A stretch of DNA of 64,000 bases, taken from Mesorhizobium sp. BR1-1-16 (GTDB taxonomy: Bacteria; Pseudomonadota; Alphaproteobacteria; Rhizobiales; Kaistiaceae). Below, piece by piece: positions 19,825 through 43,559 of this stretch. The stretch's first letter is position 1. The number at the start of each line of letters is the position of its first letter. Both the position numbers and the translations under genes were made by a program. Under the pieces are notes generated by a model. It was given only the letters and a program-made list of their open reading frames with translations, was not told the DNA's origin and ran no database searches. The stretch lies in the NCBI RefSeq assembly GCF_020165495.1, contig NZ_JAIUIE010000003.1, positions 372,001-436,000 on the forward strand, written 5' to 3'.

Positions 19825-21198
19825 TCAGTTGATCAGGGGCGACCAGGCGGGATCCGAGCCGAAATTGGGCGTCGGTACGCGGAACTCGTTGTAGCCCGTC
19901 AGGTCGATCGACCAGAGTTGCGGACCGCCCGTCGGGCCTGGGACGTCGCGGAAGAACATCAGCACGCGGCCGTTCGGCGCCCAGGTCGGACCCTCGTTGT
20001 GGAAGCCCTCGGTCAGGATGCGTTCGCCTGAGCCATCTGGCTTCATGACGCCGATGGCAAAGCCATTCGCGGATTGGCGCGTGAAGGCGACGAGATCGCC
20101 GCGCGGCGACCAGACCGGCGTCGAATAGGACCCCTGACCGAACGAGATGCGGGTCGGATTCGAGCCATCTGCGCCCATCACATAGATTTGCTGGCTGCCG
20201 CCGCGATCGGACGTGAACGTGATCTGCGAACCATCCGGCGAATAGGACGGGCTGGTATCGATCGAGGCCGAATTGGTGAGCCGCGTCGTCTTCTTCGAGC
20301 GCAGGTCCATCCGGTAGATGTTCGCGTTGCCCTGGTCCTCGAGGCTCATCACGATGCTTTGGCCATCCGGCGAGAAGCGCGGCGCGAAGGTCATGCCCGG
20401 GAAATTGCCGACCAATTCGCGCTGTCCCGTTTCAATATTGAGCAGGTAAACGCTCGGCTGATCCTGCCCATAGGACATGTAGACAATTTCCTGCGACGAC
20501 GGATTGAAGCGCGGCGTCAGCACCAGATCGTTGCCACGGGTCAGGAAGCGGGCATTGGCGCCGTCCTGATCCATGATCGCGAGGCGCTTGACGCGCTTGT
20601 CCTTCGGCCCGCTCTCGTCGACATAGACGATGCGCGTATCGAAATAGCCGCCGTCGCCGGTGAGCCGCTCATAGATCGCGTCGGCGATGATATGGGCGAC
20701 GCGGCGCCAGTTGTCGGGGCTCGTATAGAATTGCTGTCCCGCCATCTGCTGGCCGGCATAGATGTCCCAGAGGCGGAACTCGGCCTTGAGGCGGCCGTCG
20801 GGCTGGCGCGTCACGCCGCCTGTCACCAGCGCCTGCGCGTTGATGACCGTCCAGTCCTGGAAGCGCGGCGTCTGGTCGGCGCGCGTGATCTTCTCGATGA
20901 ACGAAGCCGGATCGAGCGGCATGAACAGGCCGGAGCGCTTGAGATCCGCCGCCACGACGCCGGAGACATCGGCGGCGAGCTGCGCGTCCTCGGCGGTGCC
21001 GCCGATGAAGGTCGGAATCGCGATCGGCAGCGGCTGGACATTGCCCTGCGTGACGTCGAGGCTGATCAGCGCCTCGGCCCGATCGGCCGTCATCACCCCG
21101 GCAGCGAACATGGTCGCCGCGAGGCCGATAGATGCGAAGGTCAGGCGAATGAAGCGGAGCGGCCCGGCGGCGCGTCTCTCGGCAGCGTGAACCGTCAT
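19825..21198 (-). CDS. tolB: Tol-Pal system protein TolB
   Basis: A 457-residue periplasmic beta-propeller protein that binds Pal and TolA during outer-membrane constriction. The ATG at 21198 gives a long signal peptide with a basic start and hydrophobic core ([20 protein letters not shown]), cleaved after about AEA. Residues 40-160 form the alpha/beta N-terminal domain. The propeller repeats follow, with repeated blade segments such as [32 protein letters not shown] and [10 protein letters not shown]. The order tolQ-tolR-tolA-tolB-pal is intact. Confidence 0.97.
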
Positions 21199-21278
21199 GA
21201 TGGTGTTCCTTGAATCCGAAAGTCTCGAGTTGGGCCGGTCATGCATGAAGATAACGGCGGTGCGGTGACGAAGGCGCA

Positions 21279-22274
21279 TCATCCCTGCGGGCTGAAACGC
21301 ATCTGGACTTCGCTCCACTGGTCATATTTCTCGGCCGGAAGCTGATACGGCCCGCATTGCAGGACTGCGCGCACTGCGCCTTCGGCGGCGACGGTGCCGT
21401 AATTGCTGGCGGGATACTGCTCGATACTGGGCGTTCCATTGACGGTGCCGTCCTGATTGAGCTTGAAGCGGATCGTGACCGTCACCTCGCGCGGATCGGT
21501 CCAGCCGACCGGCAGGTTCCAGCAGCGCTGCACCTGCGAGCGCAGCGCGTCGAGCTCGCTTTGCGACATCATCGCCGTCGGATTGCGCGCCTCTTCGGCG
21601 CCGAAGCTCTCGGGCTCCTGGCTCGCCTGCGTGCTACCGGTCGGCTTCTGGCGGTCGAGCAGCGCCGAAATCTTGTCCGGATCGAATTTTGAATCGGTCG
21701 TGCTCTGCGTCGGCGTCGCCGGCTTCGCAGCGGCCGTCTGGTCGGGCTTCGGCGGCGTCGGCGTTGGCGGGGTCGGCCGAACGCGCGGCTTCGGCGCCGG
21801 TGGCGGCGGCGGCGCTTCGGCAACCTTCTCGGCCTCGGGCGGCTTTGGCGCGACGGCAGGTTCAGGCGACGGCGCAGGCGCCGGCTCGGCCGGTTTTTCA
21901 GGCGCGGCCGGTGTCGGTGGAGGCGTCGCCTCGGCCTTCGGGGCGGGCGGCGTCGGCTCGGCCTTTGGTGCCGGCGGCGTCGGATCCGCCTTGGGCGGTG
22001 GCGGCGTAGAGGGCGGTGTCGGCTTTGGCGGTGGCGGCGTCGGGGCCGGCTTCGGCGAATCCTTTTCAGCCGGCTTGTTCGGCGAGGGCTTGTCCTTGAC
22101 CTCAGCGGTCTTCTTGCCCTTCTGCAGGCTGGTCAGATCGGAGATCGGCACAAGCTCGACCGGCAGCGCCTCGACCGAGCTCGTATCGAACGGCTTGGTA
22201 TCGGGCAGCGCAAAAAGGCCCCAGAAAATAATGAGGAGATGGGCAATGATCGAAGTGATGAGCCCGGTACGCAT
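21279..22274 (-). CDS. tolA: Tol-Pal system protein TolA (proline-rich form)
   Basis: A 331-residue energy-transducing protein. Residues 6-24 form the single inner-membrane helix ([18 protein letters not shown]). Residues 60-200 are a long proline-rich spacer with repeats such as PTPPAPKAE instead of the helical domain of enterobacterial TolA, which makes it look more TonB-like. The C-terminal 90 residues ([20 protein letters not shown], then [14 protein letters not shown]) form the domain that binds TolB/Pal. It starts 5 bp after tolR on the same transcript. Confidence 0.93.
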
Positions 22275-22279
22275 CGGGA

Positions 22280-22738
22280 TCAGCCGCCCTGGGAGTCGAT
22301 CGTGACCAACCCGATGTTGCGGTAGCCGGCGCCGGAGATCAGGCCCATGACCTGCATGATCGCGCCATAATTACTGGTCTTGTCGCCGCGCACGAAGATG
22401 CGCTCGTCATAGCCGGTGGTGGCGATCGCCTTGAGCTTCGGCACGAGTTCGTCGGCCGCAATCTCGGTGTCCTGCAGGAAGATCTTGCCCGCCGGGTCGA
22501 TCGTGATCGAAATCGGATCCTTGTCCGCCGAGAGCGCCTTGGCCTCGCTCTCAGGCAGGTTGATCGGAACGCCGGACGTCAGCATCGGCGCCGAGACCAT
22601 GAAGATGATGAGCAGAACGAGAATGACGTCGACGAAAGGCGTGACGTTGATCTCGCTCATGATCGCGGTCGAACGACGGCGACGACGCGCGCCGCGGCGC
22701 CCGCCTCTCCCGCCTGCCCCACCGACGGCCATGGCCAT
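22280..22738 (-). CDS. tolR: Tol-Pal system protein TolR (ExbD family)
   Basis: A 152-residue proton-channel partner of TolQ. After a short Gly/Arg-rich cytoplasmic tail, the single membrane helix reads INVTPFVDVILVLLIIFMV, with the essential proton-carrying aspartate D37. The periplasmic domain includes INLPESEAKALSADKDPISI and IFVRGDKTSNYGAIM. Three base pairs separate it from tolQ. The start could be one or two codons later, because ATG occurs at codons 1 and 3. Confidence 0.96.
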   Translation of the reverse strand: MAMAVGGAGGRGGRRGARRRRRSTAIMSEINVTPFVDVILVLLIIFMVSAPMLTSGVPINLPESEAKALSADKDPISITIDPAGKIFLQDTEIAADELVPKLKAIATTGYDERIFVRGDKTSNYGAIMQVMGLISGAGYRNIGLVTIDSQGG

Positions 22739-22741
22739 TGC

Positions 22742-23455
<714 letters not shown>

Positions 23456-28652: not shown

Positions 28653-29897
28653 TCAACCCGGCGGCGGTTTCGCCACCTCGACCGGCGGTTTGAGCCCTGG
28701 CGGGGGCAGTTCATCGGCCGGAGCCGGGCCAGTCATGACAGGCTTTGGCGCCTGGCCATCATGCTTCAGCGATTGCGCAGCGACCGGCGAAGCCACGCTG
28801 CCCGGCGGCCAGTGCGCCGCCTCATCGGTCGCCTTCTTGCGATCGGCATCCGAAAGACGGCCGATGAAATCCTGGAGCCAGTCGTCCTTGGCACCCGCCT
28901 TCGCGGCGATCAGATGCCACTTCGCCGCCTCGACCCGGTCCTGCGGCACGCCGGCGCCGATCGCCAGCATCCGCGCATAGCGATTCTGGCCGATCGGGTT
29001 GCCGGCCTCTGCCGCGCGCTTGAACCATGTCGCAGCAGCAGCTTCGTCCTTGGCGATTCCCACGCCATTGAACAGGCGAATGCCGTATTCGACTTCGGCG
29101 TCCGCATGGCCAGCCGCTGCAGCCTTGCCGAGCCACATCGTGGCGATCGTATCGTCGAGAATGACGCCGTCGCCCGCCGCATAAAGTTCGCCCAGCGCGT
29201 ATTGCGCGTCGGCGCTGCCCTGCGCCGCGGCCCTGCCGAACAGATCGGCAGCCTTCAGCGGATCGCGCGGCCGCACCTCGCCTTCGAGATAAAGAAGGCC
29301 GAGATTGTAGAGCGCGGCGCGGTCGTTCCAGGCCGCCGCCTGCTCGAAGGCGTCGGCCGCCTTGGCCTTGTCCTTCTTGACGCCGCGTCCGTCCAGATAA
29401 AGCAGCCCAAGCGCCAGCTGGGCCGCCGGGTCGCCGCCGAGCGCTGCCTGCTGATACCAGGCCGCGGCGGCGCGGTCGCTCTGCTTGACGCCGAGACCAT
29501 CCTGATAGATCCGCCCGACAAGCGTCTGCGCCGCAGGGTCGCCGACCTTCGCCCGCTCGAGCGCCAGCTTGAAGGCGGTGAGGTAAAGGCCGCGCTGGAA
29601 TGCGCCAAAGGCGGGATCGCCGACATCGACATCGAGACCGCGCCCAGAGCGCAGATATTGATCGGCAGAGGGCAGAACGCCGGCATCCGGCGGCGGCACG
29701 CCGAGCATGGGATCGGGGGGCGGCTGGAACAATTCGGCCTTGCCATCGGGCTCGCCCGCCGGCCCTGCTGCGGGCGCCGGGGTCGTCGTGGCGGCATTTC
29801 CCGCCGGCTTCGGCTCGGGCTTCGGCGGCGCGGCACCGGCTGCCACCGGAACGACGATGCCGAGTGCCAGGACAGAGGCCAGGACGACAAGCCTCAT
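28653..29897 (-). CDS. secreted Sel1-repeat (SLR/TPR) protein
   Basis: A 414-residue protein with a signal peptide ([20 protein letters not shown]). A Pro/Ala-rich linker leads to seven or so Sel1-like repeats from residue 120 to 350, for example [25 protein letters not shown] and [18 protein letters not shown]. The C-terminal tail is again proline-rich. Sel1 repeats act as protein-binding scaffolds; the partner is unknown. Its ATG overlaps the stop of the ThiE-like gene (ATGA). Confidence 0.88.
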
Positions 29898-30604
29898 GTC
29901 GCCGCCTCGGGCTGCGCCGCTAGGACAAGGCTGGCTGCGGCTTCGACAGCTGCGGCCGGGCCATCCGGATGCTCCCAGATCGCAGCACGAAGTGCGACGA
30001 ATTCGATGCGCGCGGCCACCGCCTCGGCAATGCAGTCGAGGCTCGTACCACCCATGACGATGGCCGGAATCTCGAACAGTGCCGACCACCAGGCAGCGAG
30101 ATCGAGTGTCTTGTCGTGGATCGCGGCGCCGTCATCGCCGTCGAAGCGACCGAAGAACAGATAATCGCATTCAGTTTCGGCAAGCAGCATCGCCTCGTGG
30201 CGGCTGTGGATGTCGCCGGCACCGACGATGCGGTCGGGCCGCCACTGGTCAACGCCGCGGCGCAGATCCGCGATGCCGCCGGCAACATGCAGCCCGTCGG
30301 CGCCCGCCCGCACCAAGAGGTCACTGTCGGTGAGGATCGCGGCGGCGCCATTCGCCTGCGCGATCGGCACCAGCTTCTCGGCAGCGGCAAGGCGAAGGTC
30401 CGGCGCCAGCCCCTCCGTTGCGATGATCAGCGAAGCCACCGCGCCTGATGCGAGCGCCGCGTCGAGAAGCGGCGCGAAGGTTGCCGCATCGAACACGGGC
30501 GGCGTGATCAGGCAGAGCCGCGCGAAGGGCGGATCGAGCGCCGCACCCTTCTTCTTCTTCGACGATTGCTGCGGATTGCTGCCGGTCTTTGTGGATTTGG
30601 CCAT
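29894..30604 (-). CDS. ThiE-like protein (divergent thiamine phosphate synthase fold)
   Basis: A 236-residue TIM-barrel protein of the ThiE/TenI type. The ATG at 30604 starts a lysine-rich tail (SSKKKKG) before the barrel (FARLCLITPPVFDAATFAPL). Family segments include AAAILTDSDLLVRAGADGLHV and IVGAGDIHSRHEAM. The pyrophosphate-binding TKT-type motif expected after the FFGRF strand is not visible; instead the sequence reads FDGDDGAAIHDKT. It may therefore not be an active thiamine phosphate synthase. It is coupled to the Sel1 protein gene downstream. Confidence 0.7.
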   Translation of the reverse strand: MAKSTKTGSNPQQSSKKKKGAALDPPFARLCLITPPVFDAATFAPLLDAALASGAVASLIIATEGLAPDLRLAAAEKLVPIAQANGAAAILTDSDLLVRAGADGLHVAGGIADLRRGVDQWRPDRIVGAGDIHSRHEAMLLAETECDYLFFGRFDGDDGAAIHDKTLDLAAWWSALFEIPAIVMGGTSLDCIAEAVAARIEFVALRAAIWEHPDGPAAAVEAAASLVLAAQPEAAT

Positions 30605-30691
30605 GCTTCGGCTTCTTGAAAAACCGCCGGACTCCGGCACAGCCTTGTGGCGAAAACGGGACGCGGCGCCAAGGCGCCTACAGTGCCGCCG

Positions 30692-31480
30692 TCAGGACCG
30701 TGCGAGCGTCGCCAGCAGCTTGCGGTGAATGGTTTCGTTGCCGGCGCAGACATCGCCGCTCTGCATCATCGTGTCGCCGCCATTGAGATCGCTGGCGAAG
30801 CCGCCGGCCTCGCGGATCATCAGCAAGCCAGCAGCGATATCCCAAGGCTTCAGGCCATCTTCCCAGAAGCCGTCAAACCGGCCGGAGGCGACCCAGGCGA
30901 GATCGAGCGCCGCCGCGCCATTGCGGCGCACGCCCGAGGTCTCCATCATCACGCGACCGAGCGTCTGGAGATAAGGCGCGTGGCCGGGCTTGCCGAGATG
31001 CGGGATGCCGGTCGCGATCACGCAATCCGGGAGCGCCGTGCGCTTGGCGACCCGCATGCGGCGGTCGTTGACGAAAGCCCCGCCGCCGCGCTCGGCGACA
31101 TAGAGCTCGTCCATCACTGGATTGAAGATGACGCCGGCGACGATCTGGCCCTCGCGCTCCAGCGCGATCGAAATGGCGAAGATCGGGATGCCGTGCAGGA
31201 AATTGGTGGTGCCATCGAGCGGATCGATGATCCAGCGATGGGCACGGTCGGTGCCCTCGATCTCGGCGGATTCCTCGGCGAGAAAGCCATAGCCGGGCCG
31301 CGCCTTCGAAAGCTCTTCGACGAGGGTCCGCTCAGCCTTCTTGTCGGCGGCCGACACGAAGTCTCCCGGTCCCTTCAGCGAAACCTGCAGGTTTTCGACC
31401 TCGCCGAAATCGCGCGCGAGGGTCCGGCCGGCCTTCATCGCGGCGGCGACCATGACATTCAAGAGGGCCGAACGGGCCAT
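30692..31480 (-). CDS. suhB: inositol monophosphatase family protein
   Basis: A 262-residue Mg2+-dependent sugar/inositol phosphatase of SuhB type. GGAGTTC precedes the ATG. The metal-site motifs are GFLAEESAEIEG, WIIDPLDGTTNFLHGIPIF and, near the C-terminus, LKPWDIAAGLLMIREAGG. The family dephosphorylates myo-inositol-1-phosphate and related compounds; SuhB also has an RNA-antitermination role in enterobacteria. Substrate not determined here. Confidence 0.92.
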   Translation of the reverse strand: MARSALLNVMVAAAMKAGRTLARDFGEVENLQVSLKGPGDFVSAADKKAERTLVEELSKARPGYGFLAEESAEIEGTDRAHRWIIDPLDGTTNFLHGIPIFAISIALEREGQIVAGVIFNPVMDELYVAERGGGAFVNDRRMRVAKRTALPDCVIATGIPHLGKPGHAPYLQTLGRVMMETSGVRRNGAAALDLAWVASGRFDGFWEDGLKPWDIAAGLLMIREAGGFASDLNGGDTMMQSGDVCAGNETIHRKLLATLARS

Positions 31481-34805: not shown

Positions 34806-36797
34806 ATGATTGATCCCCAACTCGAAACGCGCATGGCCAACGCCATCCGCGCGCTCGCCATGGATTCCGTCGAGAAAGCCAAGTCGGGCCATCCCGGCAT
34901 GCCGATGGGCATGGCGGATGTCGCGACCGTGCTGTTCACCCGCTTCCTGAAATTTGACGTCGCTCAGCCGCATTGGCCGGATCGCGACCGTTTCATCCTG
35001 TCGGCTGGCCACGGCTCGATGCTGCTCTATTCGATCCTCGAGCTGCTCGGCTCCAGCGTCGTGACGATGGACGAGTTGAAGCAATTCCGTCAGCTTCATT
35101 CGAAGACGCCCGGCCATCCCGAGAACTTCCACACGACCGGCATCGAGACGACGACCGGCCCGCTCGGCCAGGGTCTCGCCATGTCCGTCGGCTTCGCGCT
35201 GGCAGAGCGCATGCTCGCCGCCGAATTCGGCGAGGATATCGTCGACCACCACACTTACGTCATCGCCGGTGACGGCTGCCTGATGGAAGGCGTCAGCCAC
35301 GAGGCGATCGATCTTGCCGGCCATCTGAAGCTCAACAAGCTGATCGTCCTCTGGGACGACAACCGCATCACCATCGACGGCCACACCGACCTCGCCACCT
35401 CGATCGACCAGGTCGCCCGCTTCAAGGCGTCGGGCTGGAATGCCGAGCATGTTGACGGTTTCGACCGCGAAGCTGTCGCCGCCGCCATCGAGCGCGCCAA
35501 GGCCTCCGACAAGCCGTCGATGATCGCCTGCAAGACCATCATCGGCTACGGCGCCCCGACCAAGGCCGACAGCCACGCCTCGCACGGCTCGGCCCTCGGC
35601 GCGACCGAGATCGCCGGCGCCCGCGAGGCGCTGCACTGGCCCTACCCCGCTTTCGAGATCCCGGACGACGTCTCCACCGCCTGGCACGAGACTGCCAAGC
35701 GCTGGGTCGCCGATCGCGAGGCCTGGGAAGCGCGCTTCGCCGCCCGCGAGCACGACGTGAAGTCGGAATTCAAGCGCCGCTTCGCCAATGTGCTGCCCGG
35801 CAATTTCGAGGCGGCAATCGAAGCCTACAAGCGCAGCCTTTCCGACACGAAGCCGAAGGTCGCCACTCGCAAATCCTCGGAAATGGCGCTCGACATGCTG
35901 ACCGCCATCGTCCCGGAGATGGTCGGTGGCTCGGCTGACTTGACCGGCTCGAACCTGACGCGCGGCAAGCCGCAGCGTCCGCTGACGCCCGACGATTATT
36001 CGGGCCGCTACATTCATTACGGCATCCGCGAATTTGGCATGTCGGCGGCGATGAACGGCATCGCGCAGCATGGCGGCTTCGCGCCCTATGGCGGCACGTT
36101 CCTCGTCTTCTCCGATTACGCCCGCCCGGCGATCCGCCTTTCGGCGCTCACCGGCGCGCCGGTCATCTATGTGATGACGCATGACTCGATCGGCCTCGGC
36201 GAGGACGGCCCGACCCACCAGCCGGTCGAGCATCTCGCCGCCTTACGCGCCATCCCGCAGCTCAACGTCTTCCGTCCCGCCGACGCCGTCGAAGTGGCCG
36301 AAGTCTGGCAGATCGCGCTCGAAAGCCGGCACAATCCGTCGCTGCTCGCTCTCTCGCGCCAGAACCTGCCAGTGCTGCGCGTCCAGCATTCGTCCGAGAA
36401 CAAGTCGGCCCGCGGCGCCTATCTCATCGACGGTCCCGAGACCGCCGACGTGACGCTGTTCGCCACCGGCTCGGAAGTTGAGATCGCTGTCAACGCCAAG
36501 GCGAAGATCGAGGCCGCCGGCCGCACGGCCCGCGTCGTCTCCGTCCCCTGCTTCGAGCTGTTCTTCAAGCAGGACGAGGCCTACCGCGCCGCCACGATTG
36601 GCAATTCGAAGGTCAAGGTCGCCGTCGAAGCCGCCATTCGCCAGGGCTGGGACGCCTTCATCGGCAATGACGGCATCTTCATCGGCATGAGCACCTTTGG
36701 CGCCAGCGCGCCGATCGAAGCGCTCTACCCCTATTTCGGGATCACCGCCGAGGCCGCTGCGGATGCAGCGCTGAAGCGGCTCGACTCGAACACGTAA
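34806..36797 (+). CDS. tkt: transketolase
   Basis: A 663-residue thiamine-diphosphate enzyme of the pentose phosphate pathway, transferring two-carbon ketol units. The N-terminal domain shows [14 protein letters not shown] and the ThDP/Mg2+ motif [21 protein letters not shown] through DNRITIDG. The pyrimidine-binding domain has [15 protein letters not shown] with the catalytic glutamate region, followed by the C-terminal domain ([12 protein letters not shown]). Length is normal. It leads the tkt-gap-pgk-fba cluster. Confidence 0.97.
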
Positions 36798-36806
36798 TTG
36801 ACGGAG

Positions 36807-36829
36807 CGGCCGGGCGTGTGTCCCGGCCG
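36807..36829 (+). other. strong hairpin between tkt and gap
   Basis: A perfect 8-bp stem CGGCCGGG / CCCGGCCG with a 7-nt loop, 10 bp after the tkt stop. No T-run follows. It could be an mRNA-stabilising or processing hairpin that sets different levels for tkt and gap. Confidence 0.5.
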
Positions 36830-36873
36830 ACCATGACAACGACGGCGCAGGGCGCCTCTTCAGGAGACCAGAT

Positions 36874-37881
36874 ATGGCGGTGCGGGTTGCTATCAACGGG
36901 TTTGGCCGGATCGGACGCAACATCCTGCGCGCGATCGTTGAATCGGGCCGCACGGACATCGAGGTCGTATCGGTCAATGATCTCGGCCCGGTCGAGACCA
37001 ATGCGCACCTTCTCCGCTTCGATTCGGTCCATGGCCGCTTTCCGAAGGAAGTTAAGGTCGAAGGCGACAGCATCGTCGTCGACGGCAAGCCGATCCGCGT
37101 CACCGCGATCAAGGATCCGGCGACGCTGCCGCATGGCGAGATGAACATCGACATCGCCCTCGAATGCACCGGCATCTTCACGTCCCGCGACAAGGCCGCG
37201 GCGCATCTCACCGCCGGCGCCAAGCGCGTCATCGTCTCGGCCCCGGCCGACCATGCCGACTTCACGGCCGTTTATGGCGTCAACCACCATGGCCTGACGA
37301 AGGATCACCTCGTCATCTCCAACGGCTCCTGCACGACCAACTGCCTCGCTCCGGTCGCCAAGGTGCTTCAGGAAGCGGTCGGGATCGAGCACGGCTTCAT
37401 GACGACGATCCATTCCTACACCGGCGACCAGCCGACGCTCGACACGATGCACAAGGACCTCTACCGCGGCCGTGCGGCAGCGCTGTCCTCGATCCCGACC
37501 TCGACCGGCGCAGCCAAGGCGATCGGCCTGGTGATCCCGGAACTCAAGGGCAAGCTCGACGGCAGCTCGATCCGCGTGCCGACGCCGAATGTCTCGCTCA
37601 TCGACTTCAAGCTCGTCACCAAGCGCGCTACGACGATCGACGAGATCAACGAGGCGATGAAGGCAGCCGCCGCCGGCCCGCTGAAGGGCGTCCTCGCCAT
37701 CACCGACCAGCCGAACGTTTCGCACGACTTCAACCACGACCCGCATTCGGCCACCTTCCATCTCGACCAGACTAAGGTGATCGACGGCAATTTCGTCCGC
37801 GTCCTCGCCTGGTACGACAATGAATGGGGCTTCTCGAACCGCATGGCCGACATGTCGGTCGCCTTCGCCAAGCTGATCTGA
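36874..37881 (+). CDS. gap: type I glyceraldehyde-3-phosphate dehydrogenase
   Basis: A 335-residue NAD(P)-dependent glycolytic enzyme. The Rossmann motif is VRVAINGFGRIGRNILRAIV. Catalytic C153 lies in SNGSCTTNCLAP, and its partner histidine is H180 in MTTIHSYTGDQ. The C-terminal WYDNEWGFSNRM segment is intact. Residue 35 in VVSVNDLG keeps the aspartate typical of NAD preference. It lies 76 bp after tkt and 99 bp before pgk. Confidence 0.97.
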   Translation: MAVRVAINGFGRIGRNILRAIVESGRTDIEVVSVNDLGPVETNAHLLRFDSVHGRFPKEVKVEGDSIVVDGKPIRVTAIKDPATLPHGEMNIDIALECTGIFTSRDKAAAHLTAGAKRVIVSAPADHADFTAVYGVNHHGLTKDHLVISNGSCTTNCLAPVAKVLQEAVGIEHGFMTTIHSYTGDQPTLDTMHKDLYRGRAAALSSIPTSTGAAKAIGLVIPELKGKLDGSSIRVPTPNVSLIDFKLVTKRATTIDEINEAMKAAAAGPLKGVLAITDQPNVSHDFNHDPHSATFHLDQTKVIDGNFVRVLAWYDNEWGFSNRMADMSVAFAKLI

Positions 37882-37980
37882 TCATCACGACGATCTGATC
37901 CTCGGGACGAACAGAAGCTAAAGATGACAATCGGGTTCGGGCGCCGTCCGGACCCGCAGCAATCCTTGGGGACACGCAGC

Positions 37981-39177
37981 ATGACCGCCTTTCGAACCCT
38001 TGATTCCGCCGAAGTGAAGGGCAAGCGGGTCCTCATCCGCGTCGATCTGAATGTGCCGATGAACGACCGTGTCGTCACGGACGACACCCGCATCCGCGCC
38101 ATCCTGCCGACGGTCAACGAAGTGACCAAGAAAGGCGGCAAGGCGATCCTGCTCGCCCATTTCGGCCGGCCGAAGGGTGAGCGCGTCTCCGACATGTCGC
38201 TCGCGCCGGTGGTTCCCGTGCTGCAGACGCTGCTCGGCAAGCCCGTCGCCTTCGCCAATGACTGCATCGGCAACGACGCCGCCTCGGCGATCGCCAGGAT
38301 GTCGGACGGCGACGTGCTGCTGCTGGAGAATACGCGCTTCCACAAGGGCGAGGAAAAGAACGACCCGATCTTCGTTGCCGCGCTGGCCGAACTCGGCGAT
38401 ATCTATGTCGACGACGCCTTCTCCGCCGCGCATCGCGCCCATGCTTCGACCGAAGGCATCGCGCGCCAGCTCCCGGCCTTTGCCGGGCGCTCGATGCAGT
38501 CGGAACTCGAAGCGCTCGAAAAGGCGCTGACCGCGCCGCGGCGCCCGGTGATTGCCGTCGTCGGTGGTGCCAAGGTCTCGTCCAAGATCGAACTCTTGAA
38601 CAATCTGGTCACCAAGGTCGACGCGCTGGTCATTGGCGGCGGCATGGCCAATACGTTCCTGAACGCGCAGGGCTACAATGTCGGCAAGTCGCTCTGCGAG
38701 CATGAGCTGGCCGATACCGCCCGCCGCATACTCGCGACGGCCGCCGACAGCGGCTGCGCCATCATCCTGCCGGTCGACGCCGTCGTCGCCTGGCGCTTCG
38801 AGGCGCGCGCGCCGAGCCAGGCCTATGCGGTTGATTCAATTCCCGCCGATGCGATGATCCTCGACATCGGCCCGCACTCGATCGAGCGCGTCAAGTCGGC
38901 GATCGACGACGCCGCGACGCTGGTCTGGAACGGACCGCTCGGCGCCTTCGAAATGGAGCCGTTCGATCGTGGCACGCTGGCGGCAGCGCAGCACGCAGCG
39001 GCGCGGACCCGCGACGGTCACCTCCTCTCGGTCGCCGGCGGCGGCGACACCGTGGCCGCGCTGAATGCAGCCGGCGCGGCCGATGATTTCAGCTATATCT
39101 CGACGGCTGGCGGCGCCTTCCTCGAATGGCTCGAGGGCAAGCAACTGCCGGGCGTCGAGGTGCTCCGTCGCGGATGA
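37981..39177 (+). CDS. pgk: phosphoglycerate kinase
   Basis: A 398-residue kinase transferring phosphate from 1,3-bisphosphoglycerate to ADP. The ATG at 37981 (GGGGA upstream) gives the normal N-terminus [33 protein letters not shown], the nucleotide site [14 protein letters not shown] and the C-terminal [13 protein letters not shown] are all present. An in-frame ATG at 37924 would add 19 unconserved residues and is less likely. Confidence 0.97.
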
Positions 39178-39260
39178 TGTGTGGTCGCTGATCTCTCGCG
39201 GGCGGCGTGATCGCCCGGATTGACGACCTCTTCATCCTGGCGGAACGTTCTCTACTGCCG

Positions 39261-39288
39261 GTTTTATTTTGCGATGCAAAATCAAAAC
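39261..39288. promoter_or_regulatory. AT-rich palindrome upstream of fba
   Basis: A perfect inverted repeat ATTTTGC-GAT-GCAAAAT (39266-39282), with outer arms GTTTT / AAAAC extending it with a one-base bulge. It lies 73 bp before the fba start in an otherwise GC-rich 177-bp gap. The form suits a LacI- or GntR-type repressor operator. No regulator gene lies next to it. Confidence 0.55.
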
Positions 39289-39354
39289 TCGCACGTTATG
39301 CAGGGCTAGCGGATCGGATCGGCCGGTTCCCGCCTCGACGAGAGACCGATACGC

Positions 39355-40386
39355 ATGAGCGAGAGCTTGCAGGACATTGCCCGCCGTCTGGTTGTGCCGC
39401 AAAAGGGGCTCCTTGCCGCCGACGAGAGCTCCGGCACGATCAAGAAGCGGTTCGACACCATCAACCTGACCTCGACCGTCGAAAGCCGGCGAGACTATCG
39501 CGAGATGCTGTTCAGCGCCCGCGAGGCGATGCACGACCATATCTCCGGCGTCATCCTTTTCGACGAGACGATCCGCCAGTCGGCCAAGGACGGCACGCCG
39601 CTCGTCAAGCTGATCGAGGATGCCGGCTCGATCCCGGGTATCAAGGTCGATGCCGGCGCGATCCCGATGGTCGGCTTCCCGGGTGAAACGATCACCGAGG
39701 GTCTTGATGGCCTCGGCAAGCGGCTAGCCGAATATCGCGGCCTTGGCGCCCGCTTCGCCAAATGGCGCGCCGCGATTGCCATCTCCAAGGTTCTGCCGAC
39801 CTCCGGCGCGACCTATGCGAACGCCCATGCCCTCGCCCGCTACGCCGCGCTCTGCCAGTCCGAAGGCATCGTGCCCATCGTCGAGCCGGAAGTGCTGATG
39901 GACGGCGCAGAGGCAACGCATGACATCGAGCGCTGCCAGGCGGTCACGCAGGAAGTGCTGCGCGTCGTGTTCGAGGAACTGGCGCGCCTCCGCGTCGATC
40001 TCACCGGCATGATCCTGAAGCCGAACATGATCGTCCCGGGCAAGGACAGCGGCCAGGTCGTCAGCCCGGAAGAGATCGCCGAGCGGACGATCGCGGTGTT
40101 CCATGCGAGCGTCCCGACCACTGTCCCGGGGATCGCCTTCCTCTCCGGCGGCCAGTCCGACGAGGAAGCAACGGCTAATCTCTCGGCCATCAACAAGATC
40201 AAGGACTTGCCCTGGCCGATCACCTTCTCCTATGGCCGCGCGCTTCAATCCGCCGCGATCAAGGCTTGGGATGGCAAGGCCGAGAACGTCGGGGCCGGCC
40301 AGCGCGCTTTCCTGCATCGCTGCGAGATGAACGGCCTCGCCACTGTCGGCGAATGGACCGAGGCCAAGGAAAAGCAGGCGGCCTGA
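39355..40386 (+). CDS. fba: class I fructose-bisphosphate aldolase
   Basis: A 343-residue Schiff-base aldolase that interconverts fructose-1,6-bisphosphate with dihydroxyacetone phosphate and glyceraldehyde-3-phosphate. The lysine K222 in MILKPNMIVPGK is the Schiff-base residue. GLLAADESSGTIKKRF and VPIVEPEVLMDG are class I signatures, as is SGGQSDEEAT near the C-terminus. No metal is needed. It closes the tkt-gap-pgk cluster but has its own leader with a palindrome. Many bacteria use the unrelated class II enzyme instead. Confidence 0.97.
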   Translation: MSESLQDIARRLVVPQKGLLAADESSGTIKKRFDTINLTSTVESRRDYREMLFSAREAMHDHISGVILFDETIRQSAKDGTPLVKLIEDAGSIPGIKVDAGAIPMVGFPGETITEGLDGLGKRLAEYRGLGARFAKWRAAIAISKVLPTSGATYANAHALARYAALCQSEGIVPIVEPEVLMDGAEATHDIERCQAVTQEVLRVVFEELARLRVDLTGMILKPNMIVPGKDSGQVVSPEEIAERTIAVFHASVPTTVPGIAFLSGGQSDEEATANLSAINKIKDLPWPITFSYGRALQSAAIKAWDGKAENVGAGQRAFLHRCEMNGLATVGEWTEAKEKQAA

Positions 40387-40436: not shown

Positions 40437-40519
40437 TGTCCAAAAGTCTTCCTAATTCCGGCCAAATCACGCTACAGGAGTAGGGACACCTCCCCTTTGT
40501 GAGACGGCCGGCGCGACCG

Positions 40520-41536
40520 ATGGCACGAGACTTCGATCCCTACAGGCTGGCGAGCCCCCAGGTTTATCTCTGGCGGATGATCATCTTCCTGATCATCGCC
40601 GGCTTTGTCGCGCTGATCCTCTATCGCCAGGCCTATGCCTCCTTCCTCGCCAATCCGGCGCTGAACGGCGTCATTCTCGCGGTGCTCGCGATCGGCATCA
40701 TGCTGGCGTTCCGCCAGGTGATCCGCATCTTCCCCGAAATCCGCTGGGTCAATTCCTTCCGCACGTCGGACCGCTCGGCAGAGATGGAGCGCATGCCCGT
40801 CCTGCTGGCGCCAATGGCCGCGATCCTCGGCGACCGCATCGGCCGCATGTCGATCTCGACCCAGACCATGCGGTCGGTGCTCGATTCGATCCTGATGCGC
40901 CTCGATGAGGACCGCGACACCTCGCGCTATCTGACCGGCCTGCTGATCTTTCTCGGCCTGCTCGGCACCTTCTGGGGCCTGCTGCAGACGGTGAGCGCTG
41001 TTGCGGACGCCATCGGCTCGCTGAATGTCGGCACAGGCGACAGCGCCGTCATCTTTGAGGATCTGAAAGCCGGCCTCCAGGGCCCGCTGACCGGCATGGG
41101 CACCGCCTTCTCGTCCTCGCTGTTCGGCCTGTCGGGCTCCCTGATCCTCGGTTTCCTTGATCTGCAGGCCGGCCAGGCACAGAACAAGTTCTATACCGAG
41201 CTCGAGGACTGGCTCGCGACGGTCACCGACCTCGATCCGACGATGCTTGACGTGAACGACCGCGCCGCCTCCGGCGATGATCTTCGCCTCGCCGTTGAGC
41301 GGCTGACGCTGGCCCTCCAGGAAGGCGGCGGCGCCGGTGCGCCCGCGTCCTCGCAGCGCGCAACGGCGGCCATGGCCAATCTCGCCGAAGGCATCCAGGG
41401 CCTTGTCCAGCACATGCGCAGCGAGCAGCAGGTGGTGCGCGGCTGGGTCGAGCAGCAAGCCGACCAGCAGCGCGACATCCAGCAATTGCTCGAAGTCATC
41501 GCCCGCGCGCTGAAACAGCCAACGGCGGGAGAATAG
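40520..41536 (+). CDS. MotA/TolQ/ExbB-like proton channel protein
   Basis: A 338-residue inner-membrane protein. Two helices near the N-terminus (YLWRMIIFLIIAGFVALILY, NGVILAVLAIGIMLAF) precede a cytoplasmic loop. Two more follow (TGLLIFLGLLGTFWGLLQTV and MGTAFSSSLFGLSGSLILGF), carrying the GLLGTFWGL signature of the family. The C-terminus is hydrophilic and helical. It is longer than TolQ and distinct from the tolQ at 22742-23455. The start is uncertain: ATG at 40520 or GTG at 40499. It is paired with the MotB/OmpA-like gene 2 bp downstream. Confidence 0.85.
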   Translation: MARDFDPYRLASPQVYLWRMIIFLIIAGFVALILYRQAYASFLANPALNGVILAVLAIGIMLAFRQVIRIFPEIRWVNSFRTSDRSAEMERMPVLLAPMAAILGDRIGRMSISTQTMRSVLDSILMRLDEDRDTSRYLTGLLIFLGLLGTFWGLLQTVSAVADAIGSLNVGTGDSAVIFEDLKAGLQGPLTGMGTAFSSSLFGLSGSLILGFLDLQAGQAQNKFYTELEDWLATVTDLDPTMLDVNDRAASGDDLRLAVERLTLALQEGGGAGAPASSQRATAAMANLAEGIQGLVQHMRSEQQVVRGWVEQQADQQRDIQQLLEVIARALKQPTAGE

Positions 41537-41538
41537 AC

Positions 41539-42567
41539 TTGGCCGTGCGCGCCCGCCGCCGCGAGGCGAGAAGCGATGTCTGGCCTGCCTTCGTCGACGT
41601 CCTCTCCAATCTCCTGCTCGTCTTCATTTTCCTGCTCTCGATCTTCGCGCTGCTGCAATTCCTGCAGACGCGGGAGATCACCGGCAAGGACACGGTGCTG
41701 AACCGTCTCAATTCGCAGATCGCGGAGCTGACGGAACTGCTTGCGATGGAGCGCTCCAACAAGCAGGAGCTGAACGACGAACTCACCAATATGCGGGCCT
41801 CTTTGGGCGCCGCCGAAAGCGAACGCGACCGCCTCAAGGGCGCAGCCGACACGTCCTCCCAGGCCGCCAATTCGGCCGACGGCCAGATCGCCATCATCAC
41901 CAAGGCGCTCGACAATGAGAAGGTGGTGAGCCAGAAGGCGCTGTCGCAGGTCGAGATCCTGAACCAGCAGATCGCGGCGCTGCGCCGTCAGATCGCGGCG
42001 CTCGAGGATGCGCTCGGCGCCTCCGAAAAGCGCGATCAGGAGAGCCAGACGCAGATCGCCGATCTCGGCAAGCGTCTCAACGTCGCCCTTGCCCAGCGTG
42101 TTCAGGAACTGTCGCGCTACCGCTCCGATTTCTTCGGCCGCCTCCGCGAGATCCTCGGCGACCGGCCCGATATCCGGGTCGTCGGCGATCGCTTCGTCTT
42201 CCAGTCTGAAGTGCTGTTCCCGTCCGGCTCAGACGAGTTCAACGACGCCGGCAAGACCGAACTCGACAAGCTGGCCGACGCGATCAAGCAACTCGAAGCC
42301 GAGATCCCGCCCGAGATCGCATGGGTCTTGCGCGTCGATGGCCACACCGATGCGCGCCCCCTCTCGGGTACAGGCCGCTTCCGCAACAATTGGGAGCTGT
42401 CGGCTGCTCGCGCGATCGCGGTCGTGCGCTATCTGATCGATCGCGGCGTCTCGCCCCAGCATCTCGTCGCCGCCGGCTTTGGCGAATATCAGCCCCTGGA
42501 GCCCGGCGACAGCGACGAGGCCAATGCGAAGAACCGCCGCATCGAGCTGAAGCTCACCGAACGCTAG
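41539..42567 (+). CDS. MotB-like / OmpA-family peptidoglycan-binding protein
   Basis: A 342-residue protein with TTG start and GGGAG 7 nt upstream. Its single membrane helix reads WPAFVDVLSNLLLVFIFLLS; D20 occupies the place of the proton-carrying aspartate of TolR and MotB. Residues 50-180 form a long coiled coil. Residues 200-340 form an OmpA-like domain (VLRVDGHTDARPLSGTGRF, then NWELSAARAIAVVRYLIDRG). With the preceding channel protein it would form a peptidoglycan-anchored ion-driven machine. No flagellar genes are near. Confidence 0.87.
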   Translation: MAVRARRREARSDVWPAFVDVLSNLLLVFIFLLSIFALLQFLQTREITGKDTVLNRLNSQIAELTELLAMERSNKQELNDELTNMRASLGAAESERDRLKGAADTSSQAANSADGQIAIITKALDNEKVVSQKALSQVEILNQQIAALRRQIAALEDALGASEKRDQESQTQIADLGKRLNVALAQRVQELSRYRSDFFGRLREILGDRPDIRVVGDRFVFQSEVLFPSGSDEFNDAGKTELDKLADAIKQLEAEIPPEIAWVLRVDGHTDARPLSGTGRFRNNWELSAARAIAVVRYLIDRGVSPQHLVAAGFGEYQPLEPGDSDEANAKNRRIELKLTER

Positions 42568-42600: not shown

Positions 42601-43071
42601 ATGGATGGACCGAGCGACCCGATCGAGATCATCCACTGGCGCGACCCAGTCTTGCCGGTCGCGCTTGATCAGCTTCTTCGGGAAGCCATCGAGACGGAAA
42701 ACGAATGGGCCGCCGATTTCCGGCCGGCATGGGAAGCGCGCCCGTTCATCGACGCTGGCGAAGCGCTGTTCCTGGCCCGCGATGGCCAGCAATTGCTGGC
42801 GATGGCCGCGATCAGCGCCGATCCTTTCATTGCGGACGGCGAGACCGGTCGGCTGCGCTTCATCTATGTCCAGACCTCCGCGCGCCGGCGGGGCCTTGCC
42901 GACAGACTTGTTGCCGCGTGCCTTGCTCGCGCCGCCGGCACCTGGCAGAGGCTCCGCCTCCACACCGACAATCCTGCCGCCGCCCGTCTCTATGAACGCT
43001 ACGGCTTCCGTCCGGCACCCGGCGCGTGGCGCGCCACGCACATTGCCGAGATCGCGCCGCCGGCAGGGTGA
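42601..43071 (+). CDS. GNAT family N-acetyltransferase
   Basis: A 156-residue acetyl-CoA-dependent acyltransferase. The acetyl-CoA-binding motif A is FIYVQTSARRRGLADRLVAACLAR, followed by RLHTDNPAAARLYERYGFRPA, the classic motif B region. GGCGGGAGC precedes the ATG. Its substrate is unknown. It follows the OmpA-like gene by 33 bp and may be co-transcribed. Confidence 0.88.
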   Translation: MDGPSDPIEIIHWRDPVLPVALDQLLREAIETENEWAADFRPAWEARPFIDAGEALFLARDGQQLLAMAAISADPFIADGETGRLRFIYVQTSARRRGLADRLVAACLARAAGTWQRLRLHTDNPAAARLYERYGFRPAPGAWRATHIAEIAPPAG

Positions 43072-43145
43072 TGGGTCTCGGCTGAGCGGCAAGAGCGAAC
43101 ACAGCGTCAACCGGAATCGGCATTTTCTATCCTGGCGAAAGGATC

Positions 43146-43559
43146 ATGCTGCAGACTGCCTCAGCCCGGAGTTTCCAGATGGCCGCCATGTCTGCCCCGT
43201 CGCGCGTGATGACGATCGTCATCTGGGTACTATGTGTCCTGCTTGCGGCGCTGTTCCTGATGGCAGCGTTCATGAAGCTCTCGGGCCAGCCGACGATGGT
43301 TGAGGAGTTCGGCGTCATCGGCCTTGGTCAGTGGTTCCGCTATCTGACCGGCCTTCTCGAATTGATCGGCAGCATCGCGCTCCTGGTACCGGCAGTGTCG
43401 GTTCTCGGCGCTGTCCTGCTGCTCTGCATCGACATCGGCGCGTTCATCACGCAGGCGTTCGTGCTGCATGGCGACGTCGTCCACACGATCGTTATCGCGG
43501 CGCTGCTGCTGGTGGTGATCTATCTGCAGCGTGAGCGTCTCAAGGCATTCCTGCCCTGA
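43146..43559 (+). CDS. DoxX family membrane protein
   Basis: A 137-residue membrane protein with four hydrophobic segments (VIWVLCVLLAALFLMAAFMK, YLTGLLELIGSIALLVPAV, VLGAVLLLCIDIGAFI, VVHTIVIAALLLVVIYLQ). FMKLSGQP and FRYLTGLLELIG match the DoxX/DoxD-like family, whose members have been linked to oxidative stress and quinone chemistry. AAAGGATC precedes the first ATG; downstream ATGs at codons 12 and 15 are alternatives. Its stop lies 2 bp from the convergent ABC gene. Confidence 0.85.
   Translation: MLQTASARSFQMAAMSAPSRVMTIVIWVLCVLLAALFLMAAFMKLSGQPTMVEEFGVIGLGQWFRYLTGLLELIGSIALLVPAVSVLGAVLLLCIDIGAFITQAFVLHGDVVHTIVIAALLLVVIYLQRERLKAFLP

Follow-up and report, generated by a model that had tools for sequence, protein, structure and literature searches.

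We asked what a pair of adjacent genes, here called A and B, does in a 64,000-nucleotide stretch of a Mesorhizobium contig (the window). The original prediction, made from the letters of the DNA, had described a channel protein and a wall-anchored partner distinct from both Tol and flagellar MotAB, with a task in Hyphomicrobiales that is not defined. Our domain, profile and tree results agree on the distinction. As for the task, no study or experiment on it was found among the papers listed in our searches of open-access main texts, run without model-strain locus tags, but the B family has already been named (PRK09039/NF006544). In the available sections of reports on LD-transpeptidases (PMC11527210), CenKR (PMC10470753), DalA (PMC10470522), the Brucella envelope (PMC10787603) and ExoS/ChvI (PMC8343143), the pair is, as far as seen, not discussed. 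The motor superfamily itself is known, and A is a separate branch of it; the family of B has its name from NCBI.

We propose, with a probability of roughly 0.6, that A-B is a conserved motor of the envelope, the third one, and that it acts in growth or division. It is very probable, and well supported by inference, that the two proteins form a motor-type ion channel pair. A role in envelope growth or division, read from the neighbouring genes only, is the one that we favour.

A channel subunit and its wall-anchored partner

Gene A occupies 40520..41536 on the plus strand and encodes 338 residues counted from the ATG; the longest open reading frame starts at a GTG at 40499. The signature LGLLGTFWGL, from which a 338-residue channel had been predicted, was found at residues 145-154 (40952..40981, plus strand) and includes T150. 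By alignment, a second motif, AFSSSLFGL, at residues 196-204 (41105..41131, plus strand) carries S200, the second polar residue. Gene B follows after an intergenic gap of 2 bp (41539..42567, plus strand, TTG start) and encodes the expected 342-residue partner. Its membrane aspartate D20 was located by sequence and alignment at the gac codon 41596..41598 (plus strand), and Pfam places the OmpA-type peptidoglycan-binding domain, also foreseen, at residues 226-333 (42214..42537, plus strand; 1e-17). In the AlphaFold model, a helical stalk, interrupted at 106-109, covers approximately residues 43-206 (41665..42156, plus strand). The coiled coil had been put at about 130 residues, which proved too short: the model gives about 165 helical residues outside the membrane and, at 0.15 nm per residue, a straight stalk would by simple calculation measure about 25 nm.

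B is a full-length member of NCBIfam family NF006544 (PRK09039.1-3), scoring 536.3 bits against a cut-off of 362 over profile positions 5-343 of 343. The family label, 'peptidoglycan -binding protein', names the family and gives no function. Searches up to E 1 found no TolR/ExbD domain in B with Pfam, OmpA being present instead, no MotA_N domain in A with Pfam, and no TIGR02796 (tolQ) among the NCBIfam matches of A, for which no NCBIfam model came near its cut-off. Against the Pfam model MotA_ExbB, A scores 15.9 bits, below the cut-off of 22.9, and the model matches 28 of 41 aligned A relatives at E <=0.01. With A below the cut-off and the other 13 relatives short of that E value, motor surveys that count by this channel domain can miss such a gene.

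The predicted model of A (pLDDT 83.7, pTM 0.65) comprises helices at 14-33, 46-81, 114-167 and 175-237 and a C-terminal helix at 278-332. Its closest structures in the top Foldseek and VIA rows are ExbB, TolQ, ZorA and MotA, with a best Foldseek E of 0.0026. The Z scores were 11.5, 11.3 and 11.2 for TolQ, 11.1 each for ZorA (8vvn_D) and ExbB, and 9.7 for MotA; this likeness is moderate, as no Foldseek E is below 0.001, Z scores below 13 are common among helical bundles, and among the motor rows of A stands an unrelated helical design with Z 10.4. The case for the superfamily fold draws on the fact that nearly all top rows belong to one superfamily, together with the conserved residues. A PDB profile search with A was uninformative, being dominated by coiled coils. 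The model of B (AlphaFold, pLDDT 80.2, pTM 0.48), predicted like A as a single chain, shows helices at 14-105 and 110-206 followed by an OmpA fold, whose nearest PDB relatives are the MotB/MotS-type domains.

Conservation was assessed across 41 sequences, of which two come from beyond the class Alphaproteobacteria and nearly all from within it, with identities of 33-65% to A and 35-73% to B. Apart from W152, the 145-154 signature of A is invariant in 41/41, T150 included, and so are F197, S200, G203 and L204; the tail of A is variable in the same alignment as well as short. W15, V19 and D20 of B are likewise invariant, as are H269, D271, N284, L287, R291 and R333 of its OmpA domain and R334 just behind it, and D20 is unchanged also in 46/46 B sequences taken from the window and locus set 1 (80 loci, described below). 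Two sequence marks of the superfamily are thus present: an aspartate in the membrane helix of B, and a Ser/Thr residue (T150, S200) in each of two core helices of A, at positions that align with those of TolQ, ExbB and ZorA and are threonines in TolQ and ExbB. In type I ZorB, mutating the membrane Asp, H186, L199, R203, R254 or R259 abolishes function and, for the last five, wall binding as well, according to the sections available of PMC11890865. By motif rather than by a tool alignment, we equate these provisionally with D20, H269, L287, R291 and R333+R334 of B. Because the invariant residues match essential ones of ZorB, the ion path and the wall anchor of A-B look intact.

The invariant D20, T150 and S200, the fold matches and the MotB-like OmpA domain together support reading A-B as a motor. 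By analogy with the superfamily, five A subunits would ring the membrane helices of two B subunits (5:2), and the path of the ions would run between the T150/S200 ring of A and D20 of B. The OmpA domains at the end of the long stalk would pin B to peptidoglycan. Ion flow might then rotate the A ring and its C-terminal cytoplasmic helix relative to the wall; just as well, it might strain the wall through the stalk. As the neighbouring genes alone suggest, the pair may work alongside the RgsF/Tol-Pal machinery.

B is about 340 residues long in most Hyphomicrobiales, about 500 in one family (f4) and 630 in another (f15). In a further family (f70), the open frames of B reach 516-858 residues through a longer coiled coil, which is too long for one straight stalk.

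Place in the motor superfamily

We built a tree from 195 columns and 79 rows, of which 41 were A, 12 MotA and three ZorA, with TolQ and ExbB included; a further ZorA row, L232, had been left out beforehand for being weak, and the program warns of long branches. Clade support was 80/74 for A, 100/99 for MotA and 99/99 for ZorA, with TolQ weak at 59/32. The original prediction had left room for a position inside true MotAB. The tree speaks against this, as MotA forms its own clade and A falls outside. A and ZorA form one clade (98/96), and AU tests reject neither A+MotA (p 0.24) nor A+TolQ+ExbB (p 0.30).

Profile comparisons agree with the tree in part. The best outside profile score of ZorA is with A (median 10.1 bits vs about 0), and the best outside scores of A are 14.6 for TolQ and 13.7 for ZorA. 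In profile-profile comparisons, A pairs with TolQ, ExbB or ZorA at 68-73% probability and with MotA at 11%, TolQ and ExbB pairing at 100%. By sequence, A thus stands closer to ZorA and TolQ, about equally, than to MotA, which adjusts the description of A as a TolQ/MotA-like channel. Among padloc profiles, the best for A is ZorA1 (E 2.4e-14), and two ZorA subfamily profiles weakly match 27 and 26 of the 41 A sequences; against the ZorA profile, A scores 18.5 bits, with a cut-off of 100. We conclude that A is probably its own deep branch with ZorA nearest. A survey of such motors omitted ZorAB from its trees as too remote, as stated in the sections available (PMC12505986), and another survey has also been published (PMC9389320).

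The known systems each share features with A-B and differ from it in others. With Zorya ZorAB (types I and II), the pair has in common the motifs GTF.G and M.TAF..SL.GLS.S in A and ZorA, W-x4-D in B and ZorB, the OmpA wall anchor, and the fold of A. By contrast, the pair is a core gene with housekeeping neighbours, A lies far below the ZorA cut-offs, and its tail after residue 237 is about 100 residues, compared with about 460 in type I and 279 in type II ZorA in the available sections of PMC11890865. With TolQR/ExbBD it shares the channel fold and FVDV around D20 of B, as in the TolR of the window, whereas B ends in OmpA and has no TolR/ExbD match. The flagellar MotAB likewise combines a channel with an OmpA-type wall anchor, and the domain of B resembles that of MotB/MotS; A, however, lacks MotA_N, falls outside the MotA clade and has no link to flagella. 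Membership was rejected for all three: for the flagellar stator on these features of A and on the wide occurrence of B without MotA, for TolQR on the missing tolQ match in A and TolR-type periplasmic domain in B, and for Zorya on the low ZorA score and short tail.

Distribution and gene neighbourhood

B reaches at least 150 bits in 145/150 Hyphomicrobiales genomes, including 130 of the 131 rated good, which makes it a core gene of the order. A lower threshold gives 148/150 and 131/131, adding weak matches in G026, G039 and G123 (E 1.6e-14 to 5.9e-19) that are other OmpA proteins in our reading. Across the class, B was found at 1e-30 in 196/289 genomes, four of them from the order, and across the phylum in 64/249, five of them outside the class. 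At the cut-off of the family, the Caulobacter and E. coli control genomes gave no match. This probable energy-using wall machine is therefore easily overlooked in the usual model species despite its presence in 145 of the 150 sampled Hyphomicrobiales. B is also retained in five of six order genomes of at most 1.5 Mb, namely all five at 1.3-1.4 Mb; the 1.5-Mb genome G494 is without it. Three nearly complete order genomes (G039, G494 and G566) lack both A and B, so that the pair must be dispensable somewhere. A search for A found nothing in the seven genomes examined in which B is missing or weak; four of these seven are less than 90% complete.

In locus set 1, A and B are adjacent in 80/80 loci; in five, the home-made ORF calls overlap by at least 80 bp (twice by more than 1 kb), and in the rest B starts no more than 382 bp after A. 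This adjacency and the score of 536.3 bits to NF006544 place the pairing beyond chance. Other channels of the superfamily are distributed differently. The flagellar MotA_N domain was detected in 29/150 order genomes, and 116 of the 121 without it carry B. The host genome has no MotA match, and its PF01618 matches up to E 1 are three: TolQ, an ExbB and A. TolQ was found in 144/150 order genomes at 1e-10, 137 of them above the TolQ cut-off.

In the window, tkt-gap-pgk-fba (34806..40386, plus strand) adjoin A, and genes for a GNAT acetyltransferase and a DoxX-like membrane protein (42601-43559, plus strand) come directly after B. Judged by look, the window has an ABC transporter near the pair besides fba, GNAT and DoxX; in relatives, the genes around the pair are housekeeping ones. 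Further away on the minus strand lie a Sel1 gene with six repeats and, by eye, a signal-peptide-like N-terminus (28653..29897), a thiE-like gene (29894..30640), and a suhB-like inositol monophosphatase gene (30692..31480), which stands upstream of A in most relatives, often directly. The tolB-tolA-tolR-tolQ-like genes lie at 19825-23455 (tolQ was tested by profile, the others assigned by look); tolQR, at 22.3-23.5 kb, is thus separate from the pair, as the original prediction had held. These tol-like genes and the rgsF-like block (28653-31480) share one region of the window.

For synteny, we clustered locus set 2, another 80 loci plus the window, with home-made ORF calls; L078, which showed no B in the clustering, was added later by homology. 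The common order, whole or in part, is tkt-gap-pgk-fba-thiE-Sel1 gene-efp-suhB-A-B, and near the pair usually thiE-rgsF-efp-suhB-A-B. In the window, this block is split: the Sel1 gene, thiE and suhB are now on the opposite strand, and the pair is left beside fba. Proximity to glycolysis genes, reported earlier, is accordingly real, while the steadiest neighbours are suhB, efp and, within the order, the rgsF-like gene. In locus set 2, 42/52 order loci and 19/26 other class loci have suhB upstream on the same strand; for the rgsF-like Sel1 gene the counts are 33/52 and 2/26. In locus set 1, the rgsF-like gene is upstream on the same strand in 64/80 loci, or 55/62 of those with at least 9 kb upstream, and these Sel1 genes match that of the window at 35-55% identity (worst E 1.7e-38). 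Among the 82 genomes whose listed over-cut-off TolQ match lies on the contig of B, 65 have tolQ no more than 50 kb away from B.

Outside the order, 12 of the 26 class loci carry one protein family between suhB and A (e.g. L086:6624-7511 and L094:5580-6545). Of these proteins, two were tested; both end in an OmpA domain and appear secreted when inspected by eye. This family is possibly a third component that was lost or moved in Hyphomicrobiales.

A role in the envelope and its alternatives

The conserved Sel1 neighbour is probably rgsF, as judged from its architecture and conservation rather than from a comparison with the SMc03995 sequence. In the sections available of the respective reports, RgsF is described as an essential Sel1 protein that sits at the septum and the growing pole in Sinorhizobium, no growth was obtained after targeted knock-out of smc03995 (PMC5929573), and homologues beyond Rhizobiales were found only for RgsE and RgsF (PMC7327166). 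As far as the main text of the latter goes, Rgs pulldowns contained RgsP, RgsM, TolQ, TolR and eight others, none of which is presented as a channel or an OmpA protein (PMC7327166). An envelope role for A-B is suggested by the rgsF-like gene upstream, by tolQ often lying within 50 kb and by the failure of the smc03995 knock-out to grow. The pulldowns weigh against it, and so does the gene neighbourhood. Only 2/26 loci from beyond the order have the rgsF-like gene close to the pair, and the block also holds the housekeeping genes efp, suhB, thiE, gap and pgk, so that gene order alone may be silent on function.

A role restricted to polar growth was considered and is disfavoured. Rgs proteins and MreB are reported as mutually exclusive in Rhizobiales in the available sections of PMC7327166, a rule that the A-B pair breaks. 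MreB matched in 18/150 order genomes, and 16 of these 18 carry B at a score of at least 150 bits (G032 partial), the two others being G039 and G144 (61% complete). In addition, other orders carry the pair, and G494 and G566 lack it without having an MreB match, while G039, also without the pair, has MreB. A-B is a candidate for the machine that powers the growth or division of the envelope in an order most of whose genomes (132/150) have no MreB match.

The pair might instead be a second TolQR-like energiser that drives an outer-membrane or periplasmic partner, for tension or for lipid or protein movement, and not wall growth. The three top Z scores of A are indeed to TolQ, and the OmpA family between suhB and A could supply the outer partner; still, TolQ ties with ZorA and ExbB, the OmpA anchor of B and its missing TolR/ExbD match indicate a shaft tied to the wall, which better fits a stator, and the families obtained by clustering (as opposed to profile search) included no TolA- or TonB-like protein as a recurrent neighbour. 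We regard this energiser as improbable. We consider it unlikelier still that the pair is a tether or sensor, linking inner membrane and wall such that wall strain gates ion flow as a signal without mechanical work. The long stalk and conserved wall-binding residues of B would suit such a device, and wall-triggered opening has been proposed for ZorAB in the available sections of PMC11890865, but T150, S200 and D20 never vary, which is what working motors show, and A has a short tail that differs between relatives.

An anti-phage Zorya-like system is very unlikely: the ZorA1 profile match, the two weak subfamily matches, the joint clade and the shared W-x4-D stand against 18.5 bits at a cut-off of 100, a short tail, and a recurrent housekeeping locale in 145/150 order genomes, unlike patchy defence islands. 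A spare flagellar or surface-motility stator, to which the MotB/MotS-type OmpA domain of B might point, is equally remote, since MotA_N is missing from A, from the host and from 121/150 order genomes, 116 of them with B, and the MotA clade excludes A; its flagellar form is already contradicted by the B carriers without MotA.

For the envelope motor that we prefer, we would tentatively add a bolder history, which as a whole is doubtful. A-B would be a third ancient alphaproteobacterial envelope motor besides Tol and Ton, placed through RgsF in the Rgs/Tol-Pal growth-zone machinery, with anti-phage Zorya as its sister branch, derived from, or of the same origin as, a housekeeping wall-anchored motor. 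A-B further provides a housekeeping comparison for the working and the origin of the Zorya defence motor.

Two further observations concern unusual carriers of B. A second B-family locus in one genome (L106, in G260) holds two B-type ORFs and no A match. The five phylum genomes with B outside the class comprise families f216, f228 and f237 and the loci L112 and L113; neither of these two loci has the shared neighbours, which may point to transfer.
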